64,000 bases of DNA from Prevotella sp. (GTDB lineage: Bacteria; Bacteroidota; Bacteroidia; Bacteroidales; Bacteroidaceae), in contig JAFYJN010000040.1 of NCBI GenBank assembly GCA_017538105.1, positions 39,428 through 103,427 on the forward strand, in the 5' to 3' direction. Of this stretch, positions 1,379 through 59,963 are shown in pieces (the first letter of the stretch is position 1; each line of letters starts with the position of its first letter). Made by a program: the position numbers and the translations under genes. The notes below the pieces were generated by a model, which was not told the DNA's origin, did not search any database, and was given only the letters and a program-made list of their open reading frames with translations.

Positions 1379-2512
1379 TTATCGAAATGCTTCTGAATTC
1401 GGGTCTAATCCTGCATCATTAAACAATTTTGTTGCATATTTGTTGCCAGCTCTTGCCATAGCAGCTACTTCTAATAAAAAACCATCCGTAGACCATGCCC
1501 CAGAGCGTTCGTTACTTAAGAATAATCTATATAAGACATAATCAATTTCATCACATCTATAAGACTTTTCTTTCTTTTTTAATCTATTCTTACTGTCTCT
1601 TTGTAAATATGCTATATCCACATTATGAATTTCAGCAAAGATATTAGCTGTTATTCGGTAATAATTTGCCGCTTCTGAATAATTATCCATAATAAAATAG
1701 CAGTCCGCAATTTTCCTCAAATTCCAAAGCCATTTTTCTTTTTCTTTCTGTATTCTCTGACATGACAATTCAAAATAACTAATAGCGTCATTATATTTTT
1801 CTAAACTAATACATACATGTGCATAAAGTCGGTATATATCTACTTGATTTTTACGAAAATAGCTATAGTCTTCTATTGTTTTTAAAATTTGCTCAGCTTT
1901 TAATGGTTCTTCATTAAGGTAATAAGCTTCCGCGAACAAATATTTTCCATAATCCGACAATCTTCCTAACGCATATAATTGAGAGTACTTCTCAATTGCT
2001 ACTCCATATAATTGGTCATCAGATGCTTGGAAGGCCTCTTGAAACAATTTGTCTATCTTATTTTCATCCATTTGTCCACCATTCTTAATCGTTAACATAT
2101 TTCCATTTATTTCTATAGCTCCTAATTGTTGAATGGCAGATTGTCCCATTAGCAATGGAGCATTTTGGCCTTCTACAACTACGGCGCGTACATTGTATAG
2201 ATGTGTACCATTTATTTCTATATCTTTGATGTTTATTTCTACATGATTTACGATTCTTCCATCTGCAACAGAAGAAGAACCAGAACCTATAATGTCATTT
2301 TCATCGAGATAACCATTGTCATAAAGATATTCTGCCATAGCCATGGACAGGCAAACACTACTAGCGCCTGTATCAAAGATAAATTTCATCTTCGCTCCAT
2401 TAACAGTACATGGAATCCTGAAGACTCCATTATATTCTTCCATTTGAATAACGATTTGTGCGTATGATGATACACATATAAACAACGAAGCTATAAATAA
2501 AAGTCTTTTCAT
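1379..2512 (-). CDS. Secreted retropepsin-like aspartic protease with TPR-like C-terminal half
   Basis: About 377 residues. The chosen start gives a clean signal peptide (MKRLLFIASLFICVSSYAQ); an upstream in-frame ATG at 2536 adds residues that would spoil it. Residues about 20-145 form a retropepsin-type domain with FDTGASS near 46-52, a single catalytic aspartate as in clan AA proteases that act as dimers, and LLMGQSAI further on. The rest is helical, with repeats resembling TPR units (for example near ALGRLSDYGKYLFAEAYYL). The product is probably periplasmic or surface-exposed; its substrate is unknown. No promoter of the Bacteroidetes type is visible in the 70 nt upstream, where the terminator-like end of a structured RNA lies, so transcription may depend on read-through from 2906. 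AT-rich, accessory character. Confidence 0.7.
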   Translation of the reverse strand: MKRLLFIASLFICVSSYAQIVIQMEEYNGVFRIPCTVNGAKMKFIFDTGASSVCLSMAMAEYLYDNGYLDENDIIGSGSSSVADGRIVNHVEINIKDIEINGTHLYNVRAVVVEGQNAPLLMGQSAIQQLGAIEINGNMLTIKNGGQMDENKIDKLFQEAFQASDDQLYGVAIEKYSQLYALGRLSDYGKYLFAEAYYLNEEPLKAEQILKTIEDYSYFRKNQVDIYRLYAHVCISLEKYNDAISYFELSCQRIQKEKEKWLWNLRKIADCYFIMDNYSEAANYYRITANIFAEIHNVDIAYLQRDSKNRLKKKEKSYRCDEIDYVLYRLFLSNERSGAWSTDGFLLEVAAMARAGNKYATKLFNDAGLDPNSEAFR

Positions 2513-2583
2513 TTCGCAGCATACTACAATTCCCATGACACCCCAGTTCAGAATTTGATTTTGTTTCGGTTAACCACATAACG

Positions 2584-2906
2584 AAAAACGTGGGTATCCA
2601 CATCTGCCCGTCCGCTATCCGAGGCCTACCACAGCCCAGCTTACTGACGAACAAAGTGACACCCACGCATCTGCATTGCTGATATACCCCGTTAGTGTGC
2701 TATGAAGGCATGGTTAGCCCTCTAGCACACAACGGGACATGATTACAGCATACCCGTGGCATCAACTCAGCATTGTCTTTGGTAAGCTATCGAATGTGGT
2801 AGTTTCGGTATAGCCAATCGACAAAGCATCGTGTGACGCTTTTCCATTATGTAGTGCTTGCTCAGAAGGTATATGTTCCACGATAGGAACACCATGTTGG
2901 GCAATG
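2584..2906 (-). ncRNA. Structured RNA of about 320 nt, family unknown
   Basis: The RNA lies just downstream (minus strand) of an excellent promoter at 2912-2943. Helices visible on the minus strand, in transcript order: a GGUGUUCC hairpin (2868-2893); an 8-bp AAAGCGUC/GAUGCUUU stem with a 4-nt loop (2823-2842); a long stem 2688-2702 with 2723-2736 (CCGUUGUGUGCUA against UAGCACACUAACGG, one bulge); and a perfect 10-bp closing stem 2589-2598 with 2658-2667 around about 60 nt that fold further, followed by UUUUU. No credible open reading frame runs through it. I could not match tmRNA, RNase P RNA, SRP RNA or 6S RNA signatures. It could be a stand-alone RNA or a long regulated leader of the protease gene at 1379-2512. 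Confidence 0.6.
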
Positions 2907-2911
2907 CTTTG

Positions 2912-2943
2912 CAAATATAATGCATTTTTCGGAATAATCCAAA
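2912..2943 (-). promoter_or_regulatory. Bacteroidetes-type promoter for the structured RNA
   Basis: On the minus strand TTTG (2940-2943) is followed by 20 nt and TATATTTG (2912-2919), a full match to the TTTG/TAnnTTTG consensus. Transcription would start near 2906. Confidence 0.75.
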
Positions 2944-2989
2944 AAAGGGGGAGTTTTTTTTGGAAAAGGAGGGGAAAGCCACCCCAGGG

Positions 2990-3215
2990 AAGATTAAAAA
3001 ATTAAAAGATTAAAAGACTTAAAAAGAGGTTGGAACATGGAAGATTATAAAATGAAAAAATTAGAAGATTAAAAGATAAATAAAAAAGAGGTTGGGAAAT
3101 GGAAGATTATATAATTAAAAGATTAAAAGATTAAAAAAGAGGTTGGGAAATGGAAGATTATAAAATTAAAAGATTAAAAGATTAAAAAAGAGGTTGGGAC
3201 ATTATTTGACATACC
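2990..3215. repeat. AT-rich tandem repeat, 51-bp unit
   Basis: GAGGTTGGGAAATGG-type starts occur at 3026, 3088, 3139 and 3190. The last two spacings are exactly 51 bp, and each unit ends in runs of GATTAAAA. The last unit continues into GAGGTTGGGACATT, then a CCACCCCT segment, and the same combination recurs near 61734-61775. The rest of the gap to 3468 is purine-rich (AAAGGAGGGGAAA repeats) with no gene visible. Confidence 0.8.
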
Positions 3216-3468
3216 ACCCCTGACTTGAAGATTTTGTCCGCTTAAGGACTATATCGCCTTTGGGAAAGAAGGGGAAAGGCAGATTGAGTAGAAAAGGAGG
3301 GGAAAAGGGGAAAAGGAGGGGGGACTGATTGAGAAGAGGGAAAGGTAGATTGATTTGGAAAAGGAAGGAATAAAAAAGAACTGCAGCTATAGGCTTCAGA
3401 TGAAGGATACAGCTGCTGTTGGTGAGTTAGTTTTTATTGGTAAAAGTGATTTAGAAAAGATTGTGTAA

Positions 3469-24740: not shown

Positions 24741-24743
24741 GCA

Positions 24744-24807
24744 CAAAAAAAGGAGTACCGCTGTACTCCAACCTTTGTTAACCTTAAATCTAATACTATG
24801 AAAAACA
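24744..24807 (-). ncRNA. Small RNA candidate of about 65 nt with own promoter and terminator
   Basis: A perfect promoter lies at 24813-24843. The transcript would contain a GTATTAGATTTAAGG stretch and end in a hairpin GGAGTAC/GTACTCC with a 4-nt loop (24752-24769), followed by seven U (24745-24751). There is no room for a protein. It may be a free small RNA or a promoter-terminator leftover; I could not assign it to a family. Confidence 0.6.
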
Positions 24808-24812
24808 CATTG

Positions 24813-59828: not shown

Positions 59829-59891
59829 CACGAAAGAAGAGGAACAAACTTTTGAAAGCAAGCTTTCACCGTCTGTTCCTCTTCTTTCGTG
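59829..59891 (-). terminator. Long hairpin touching the tRNA-Arg 3' end
   Basis: A 21-bp stem (59829-59849 with 59871-59891, one G-U) topped by a second TGAAAGC/GCTTTCA hairpin (59853-59868). It directly follows tRNA-Arg and may be its terminator or processing signal. A GCCCTGCC/GGCAGGGC palindrome lies beside it at about 59808-59826. Confidence 0.6.
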
Positions 59892-59963
59892 ACTCCCGCG
59901 GGATTCAAACCCACAACCTTCTGATCCGTAGTCAGATGCTCTATTCAGTTGAGCTAGGGAGCC
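59890..59963 (-). tRNA. tRNA-Arg (anticodon ACG)
   Basis: The minus strand folds into a full cloverleaf: acceptor GGCTCCC with GGGAGTC (one G-U), D arm AGCTCAACTGAATAGAGC, anticodon arm with loop CTACGGA (anticodon ACG), and T arm GTGGGTTTGAATCCCGC. CCA is not encoded. It has its own consensus promoter upstream. Its 3' end is duplicated at 59775, so it is a likely integration target. Confidence 0.95.

Follow-up and report, generated by a model that had tools for sequence, protein, structure and literature searches.

What is the folded RNA that seems to be encoded near one end of the window (the whole stretch of 64,000 nucleotides of Prevotella DNA analyzed here), and which gene, if any, does it serve? 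The original prediction was a free-standing structured RNA gene on the minus strand, at 2906-2584, with its own promoter and lying beside a SIR2-like gene and a protease gene. Its local features could be confirmed in the minus-strand sequence. The promoter (2912-2943) consists of TTTG at 2943-2940, N20, and TATATTTG at 2919-2912, an arrangement that we take to be the Bacteroidetes-type promoter motif and that would place the transcript start of the window copy near 2906. The segment 2906-2584 is strongly folded, with a minimum free energy (MFE) of -130.9 kcal/mol (z = -6.0) that none of 100 shuffles equaled. The 10-bp stem (2667-2658 paired with 2598-2589) and the U-tract that had been reported for its end are both there, the latter as U5 at 2588-2584. 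Farther upstream of the promoter, AT-rich direct repeats occupy 2988-3238, with a spacing between successive copies of mostly about 51 nt. A search of 2400-3300 against Rfam 15 gave zero matches at E ≤ 5, and the whole window at gathering scores gave only a FopS sRNA (RF04319, 77.6 bits) at 24742-24808 on the minus strand and a tRNA at 59890-59963. In four related loci (L071, L098, L167, and L085), three Rfam matches were found at E ≤ 1, all outside the RNA, and no Rfam riboswitch match fell within the RNA in the window or in these loci. These searches rule out a known Rfam RNA, and frequent indels, seen in the alignments, speak against a coding gene.

The RNA is part of a larger family. When the window sequence served as a blastn query against 200 genomes of the genus, 66 gave matches at E ≤ 0.01, in some cases only to the AT-rich promoter end. 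R1, a covariance model that covers a portion of the RNA and was built on 25 copies found with the window sequence, matched 151 of 398 Prevotella genomes, with a maximum of seven matches per genome, showing that the RNA is conserved in relatives, as the original prediction had proposed to check. The window's own genome carries two R1 copies, the window RNA and one ahead of a C5 methylase. Among 393 genomes sampled across the order, 11 were positive, namely two of the three from the same genus and nine of the 390 from other genera (five families); among 295 genomes sampled across the class, only the same two genus genomes were positive. A second model restricted to the 5' domain (R2) was positive in 50 of 100 genus genomes, including three without an R1 match (G007, G054, and G059), so that R1 must miss some copies; for both models, searches of more than 40 genomes used stricter filters, at which weak matches are lost. 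In addition, a 24-base pattern retrieved at least 120 stretches from named genomes, 104 of which yielded a near full-length copy by profile search, and the 80 that were shown came mostly from rumen and gut Prevotella and from other Bacteroidales. Full-length copies are present in the cultured Prevotella sp. ne3005, Prevotella sp. tc2-28, and Prevotella communis E15-14. Two limited tests for mobile carriers were negative: the L071 copy alone had no blastn match at 1e-5 among plasmids and phages, and one 24-base pattern had zero exact matches among viral contigs.

To place the RNA relative to genes, we used a set of 141 loci, comprising the window copy and 140 of the best 150 R1 places from a longer list, 9 of the 150 being omitted. 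The first downstream ORF lies on the strand of the RNA in 130 of 139 copies, compared with 79 of 132 for the nearest upstream ORF; ORFs were called by a simple ATG script, and eight of the nine opposite-strand downstream ORFs are only 60 to 110 aa long and may be spurious. The distance to the ATG is clustered, with 54 of 132 loci at 55-80 nt beyond the core and 36 at 260-320 nt. The conserved core of the RNA runs from about 2858 to 2570 (minus strand) rather than from 2906 to 2584, and pairing partners kept in the family extend beyond the U-tract to about 2530. Because of the same-strand bias, the clustered ATG distance, and the conserved partners beyond the U-tract, the RNA is, judged by its sequence context, the leader of a downstream gene or operon and not a lone RNA gene next to the SIR2-like gene. 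In the window, the led gene (1379-2512, minus strand) encodes a secreted gag-asp-type aspartyl protease with TPR-like repeats (PF13975); its start at 2512 was derived from the family spacing, which the gene would fit with that start, and the ORF list has 2536. Of the two predicted neighbors, the protease gene thus goes with the RNA. The SIR2-like gene (PF13289; 28-1314, plus strand) does not: it lies on the opposite strand and is convergent with the led gene, which rules it out as the partner. It also shows a similarity to AbiH at E = 0.0036, below the Pfam cut-off.

The promoter claim held family-wide in part. Of 140 copies, 131 have the motif TAnnTTTG at 25-110 nt ahead of the core, versus 16 of 392 control windows, and 90 of these 131 have it at 62-67 nt ahead of the core start. 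The perfect TTTG around -33 seen in the window is not general, since even TTG is found in that range in only 51 of the 131. At the other end, a run of at least four T residues was detected near the 3' end in 130 of 141 copies; a script found no U-run in eleven copies in each of two slightly differing scans.

The architecture of the RNA can be followed from 5' to 3' on the minus strand of the window. The MFE structure includes a variable 5' hairpin (2873-2892), near which a stem in a slightly shifted register (2889-2886 with 2875-2872) covaries. The P2 hairpin (2824-2841), a well conserved sequence within the 5' domain, is 93.8% paired over 77 sequences, with changes that are mostly one-sided. 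It is followed by H5 (2774-2823), whose stem (2823-2815 with 2782-2774) is 90.7% paired, with two-sided changes at 5 of 9 pairs, and encloses loop 5 (about 2814-2783). The middle domain (2663-2759) consists of element 1 (2759-2755) paired with 2667-2663 and of hairpins at 2731-2725 with 2700-2694 and 2722-2717 with 2709-2704, all 95-99% paired; this domain is absent from L419 and mostly absent from L413, both of which retain H5, the terminator, and element 4. The putative terminator hairpin (2589-2667) is built from an outer stem of element 2 (2667-2658) with element 3 (2598-2589), an inner stem (2655-2645 with 2613-2603), and loop 3 (2644-2614); outer and inner stems are 92.7% and 95.0% paired, and 4 of 10 and 6 of 11 pairs show two-sided changes. 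It leads into the U-tract (2584-2588), present in the window sequence and as T-runs in the family. Past the U-tract lie the partner of P1 (2574-2854), in which 2854-2850 pairs with 2578-2574 and so links the 5' domain to the downstream sequence (92.7% paired, 2 of 5 pairs two-sided), and the element-4 hairpin (2530-2553), whose loop (2543-2537) is complementary to element 3 (2598-2592). This 3:4 pairing is 95.1% and 89.5% paired, with two-sided changes at 6 of 7 pairs; the element-4 stem, counted at two pairs only, is 85.8% paired. Finally, loop 5 and loop 3 can pair with each other into a rod (2614-2814), through 2814-2810 with 2618-2614, 2808-2807 with 2620-2619, 2802-2795 with 2633-2626, and 2787-2782 with 2644-2639. 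The rod covaries strongly, with two-sided changes at 19 of 21 pairs; its 68-84% of paired cells in the MAFFT columns probably understate the pairing, because the columns are imperfect in the variable loops.

Covariation supports both of the alternative folds. The compensatory changes that were to be checked for are present: RNAalifold on 25 copies gave 31 of 59 pairs changed on both sides; a scan of all column pairs in 153 copies recovered the rod helices and the hairpins, plus pairings that compete with those. The two folds were scored on an alignment (A7) of 77 of the 153 copies, made up of every second copy in tree order, the window copy, and distant ones. Before A7, 14 copies were set aside (L078, L099, L116, L119, L125, L126, L142, L150, L161, L171, L174, L177, L179, and L205), and as these include the 11 copies without a U-run in one of the two scans, the pairing percentages apply to copies that have one. 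The set of rod, terminator, middle hairpins, P2, and P1 is 89.5% paired, with 41 of 67 pairs changed on both sides (shuffle mean 26.5, 0 of 500 as high). The set of H5, the pairing of elements 1 and 2 (1:2), middle hairpins, a GGC:GCC stem, 3:4, and the element-4 stem is 94.3% paired, with 23 of 39 two-sided (shuffle mean 12.3, 0 of 500 as high). Sliding the columns by one to three positions lowered pairing to 37-51% in both cases; the shuffles ignore relatedness, so their ranks are not to be read as probabilities. Element 3 covaries with both element 2 and element 4; in the 1:2 helix, all changes are one-sided and there is hardly any copy specificity. The nested rod proposed by RNAalifold is ruled out as the whole structure, given that the terminator, H5, and 3:4 also covary. 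None of the three adverse outcomes that had been set beforehand, namely an Rfam match, no conservation in relatives, and no compensatory changes, appeared.

The loops may be read as a code that differs between copies. Pairing of loop 5 with loop 3 averages -31.7 kcal/mol within a copy, compared with -13.1 kcal/mol when partners are swapped between copies and -12.1 kcal/mol for a reversed partner, and the copy's own pairing is better in 97.8% of swaps; at two sites, loop 5 comprises 80 and 88 distinct strings in 152 copies. The duplexes formed by element 3 are only modestly copy-specific (142 copies): for 2:3, own, swapped, and reversed values are -17.1, -15.3, and -13.2 kcal/mol (own better in 68% of swaps), and for 3:4 they are -14.1, -11.6, and -11.2 kcal/mol (69%). 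The two folds are also close in energy. When the 153 copies were folded up to the U-tract, the MFE contained the rod in 81, the terminator inner stem in 59, neither in 13, and never both, a fold being called if at least 40% of the rod or terminator-inner-stem pairs were present. Forcing the terminator fold costs a median of 3.3 and a mean of 4.5 kcal/mol (152 copies).

We consider it about two-thirds probable that the RNA is a cis-acting 5' leader that works as a transcription attenuator of the downstream gene. Direct results of the computations are the existence of a family, its promoter motif and helices, the two alternative folds, the pairing beyond the U-tract, and the link to operons; three features of attenuators are among them, namely a close promoter with the leader in cis, a terminator-like hairpin with a covarying stem and a U-tract ahead of the ORF, and a conserved competing fold, seen in both covariation and energy. 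Under the attenuator model, transcription would begin at the adjacent promoter and the leader would adopt one of two folds that exclude each other. In the terminator state, separate hairpins would form in the 5' and 3' halves, and the one ending in the U-tract would stop RNA polymerase ahead of the gene. The rod state would arise when the two hairpin loops pair and strand exchange opens the terminator stem, so that transcription continues; the 3' arm of the terminator, freed by the rod, could then pair with the downstream hairpin loop of element 4. A trigger, be it a protein, a ligand, or transcription speed, would bias the choice. As the 3' strand of the rod is made before the 3' arm of the terminator, the rod may be the default and the trigger may favor termination, although the reverse is equally conceivable. 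The natural copies L419 and L413, which have lost all or most of the middle domain but not the two hairpins, also favor the attenuator. Some observations count against it. Element 4 lies downstream of the U-tract and is therefore made too late to influence termination; it may keep the read-through RNA open. In addition, the loop of the terminator is long and partly structured, unlike that of a compact intrinsic terminator. The modest copy specificity of 2:3 and 3:4, the one-sided 1:2 helix, the copies with no U-run by script, and the 13 copies with neither fold also weigh against it.

Three other explanations were weighed. An unlikely one is that the leader recruits a dedicated elongation factor of the NusG-paralogue type, as RfaH is recruited at ops (the element to which the name JUMPstart is tied), its main effect being processive antitermination, in which the local terminator would be just one of several overcome. 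According to the accessible sections of PMC7593976, RfaH is mostly limited to Proteobacteria, and a divergent NusG paralogue occurs in about half of Bacteroidota. In being one element ahead of several unlinked horizontally acquired operons, ops resembles our leader. The many unrelated accessory operons led here recall RfaH targets, and the first gene downstream of the L177 copy looks NusG-like by eye. However, ops, as portrayed in those sections of PMC7593976, is a protein-recruitment site, whereas the element in Bacteroidales is a covarying RNA of large size that brings a terminator-like hairpin of its own; moreover, 130 of 141 copies include a U-run, and the two folds balance each other. Improbable, in our view, is a stand-alone trans-acting sRNA of about 320 nt that lies upstream of genes by chance and would act by pairing its 3' arm with element-4 loops in target mRNAs. 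Its own promoter motif and U-tract would suit such an RNA, as would the complementarity of element 3 to element-4 loops, but its position and strand should then be independent of the neighboring gene, and we find the same strand in 130 of 139 copies and a clustered spacing. Furthermore, element 3 binds the element 4 of other copies about as well as reversed controls (-11.6 and -11.2 kcal/mol), which argues against shared targets. The loop 5 strings also differ widely between copies. There is only a slim chance that the leader controls translation or mRNA stability, with 3:4 and P1 of the read-through RNA setting ribosome access and the U-tract hairpin serving in processing or stability: conservation of element 4 and P1 extends past the U-tract, the ATG lies 55-80 nt from the core in 54 of 132 loci, and hairpins restricting access to restriction-enzyme start sites are known (accessible part of PMC12707154), but in 36 of 132 loci the start codon is 260-320 nt off, past a second leader-like stretch.

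The attenuator reading was also compared with known systems. Transcription attenuators and riboswitch-type leaders are characterized by competing terminator and antiterminator folds. Our leader resembles them in being structured and promoter-proximal, with a terminator-like hairpin before the gene and a competing fold that breaks it, and differs from attenuators in its length (about 290 nt), the loop-to-loop strand exchange between two hairpins, the copy-variable loop code, the partner beyond the U-tract, and the accessory genes it leads, mostly DNA methyltransferases. The abiF and ToxI-type RNAs each partner one toxin family, whereas the RNA here leads many gene families. A ToxI-like repeat RNA is ruled out for the window copy, which has no tandem direct repeats inside it; direct repeats start at 2949, outside the RNA. 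What is shared with abiF and ToxI, as far as the accessible text of PMC12373285 and PMC8040213 goes, is a structured RNA upstream of defense genes. The EcoRI and Eco29kI RNAs likewise place restriction-modification (R-M) under control at the RNA level, but they are antisense RNAs within the operon, as covered in the available portions of PMC3874152 and PMC12707154, and the RNA here is a sense leader. The FopS sRNAs of Bacteroides (RF04319), in the available portion of PMC11697453, are also a multi-copy RNA family of Bacteroidales; they measure about 70 nt and form a separate family, with one copy elsewhere in the window.

What kinds of genes are led? By Pfam, C5 DNA methylases head the list of first downstream genes, with 45 of 132 loci, followed by N6/N4 methylases (8), D12 methylases (7), TdeIII restriction enzymes (5), Eco57I (5), MBOAT (4), acyltransferases (3), and others; these counts come from the 25 listed of 55 families, may overlap, and are based on proteins cut at 330 aa. 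No DNA methylase was among the 25 listed of 71 families for the nearest upstream ORFs (n = 127). Methyltransferase motifs gave the same picture, with 67 of 132 first downstream genes versus 0 of 127 upstream ORFs, 46 of which fall below 120 aa and may not be real; when the count is limited to ORFs of 200 aa or more, it is 67 of 106 versus 0 of 49. A single PADLOC type II methyltransferase model matched at most 48 of the 132 genes in first position and 22 of the 104 in second. Within the first three genes, 81 of 132 operons have a methyltransferase motif, and the 51 that have none were counted against our best explanation. Conversely, only 2 of the 30 strongest PF00145 C5-methylase loci (about one per genome) carry the RNA within a flank of at most 1.5 kb, shortened in some cases by the end of a contig, and most of those methylases are therefore without it. 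On a FastTree phylogeny of the RNA core, the label with or without methyltransferase changes 11 times, versus 40.9 on average (minimum 34) when the labels were shuffled 200 times. The clades without methyltransferase, among which the window copy falls, lead genes for surface or secreted proteins and for glycan modification, small genes of unknown function, and what is probably a peptide-modification cluster (assigned partly by eye). Our best reading is that the leader is carried by accessory operons, chiefly R-M, in gut and rumen Prevotella and some relatives. In one locus, L116 (1459-5558, turned so that the RNA is on the plus strand), the led operon encodes a Cys-rich small protein and two radical-SAM/SPASM-like proteins, all named by eye, perhaps a modified-peptide cluster.

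A paper on 224 RNA motifs reportedly includes a D12-methyl motif. Nothing describing the present leader was found in the titles and abstract openings of the literature searched, coverage that largely excludes subscription papers, and the main text of a human-microbiome RNA survey, in the portion available, mentions neither methyltransferases nor restriction. The leader is likely absent from print so far. It has long been asked how an incoming R-M system spares its naive host, and the answers to date are control proteins, methylase autoregulation, and antisense RNA (accessible parts of PMC3874152 and PMC12707154). A word search of the available text of these two reviews found control proteins, antisense RNA, and start-site hairpins, and no leader-RNA attenuation. 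A common leader ahead of many unrelated methyltransferase operons would offer one RNA handle on R-M timing, extending to the surface and defense genes that share it in gut and rumen bacteria. Differing loop codes would prevent interference among copies in one cell and would make a natural case of parallel RNA switches kept separate. As a more tentative idea, on which we would not bet, the element could be a general RNA-only switch for newly acquired Bacteroidales genes: R-M, defense, and surface-modification operons would each bring their own leader, with loop codes distinct enough for several copies per cell without cross-talk, and the switch would time expression on entry into a new host or upon phage-altered transcription. 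If true, this would amount to leader-RNA attenuation of restriction-modification.

C5-methylase loci (41 aligned; for example, L071, 880-1130) contain a further conserved stretch of about 200 nt, of two sequence types, whose end, at or close to the start codon, is a hairpin followed by a U-run. No Rfam match covers this element in L071, L098, or L167. A search with one of the types gave 17 matches, spread over 14 of 100 genomes; of the 17 loci fetched, 5 showed no copy of the first RNA, one of these (L375) being truncated where its contig ends. Lastly, two truncated copies, at 1501-1891 of L024 (ahead of hicA, by eye) and at 380-323 of L028 (ahead of a lipoprotein-like ORF), retain only the promoter and the 5' domain, and are possible natural escapes from attenuation.
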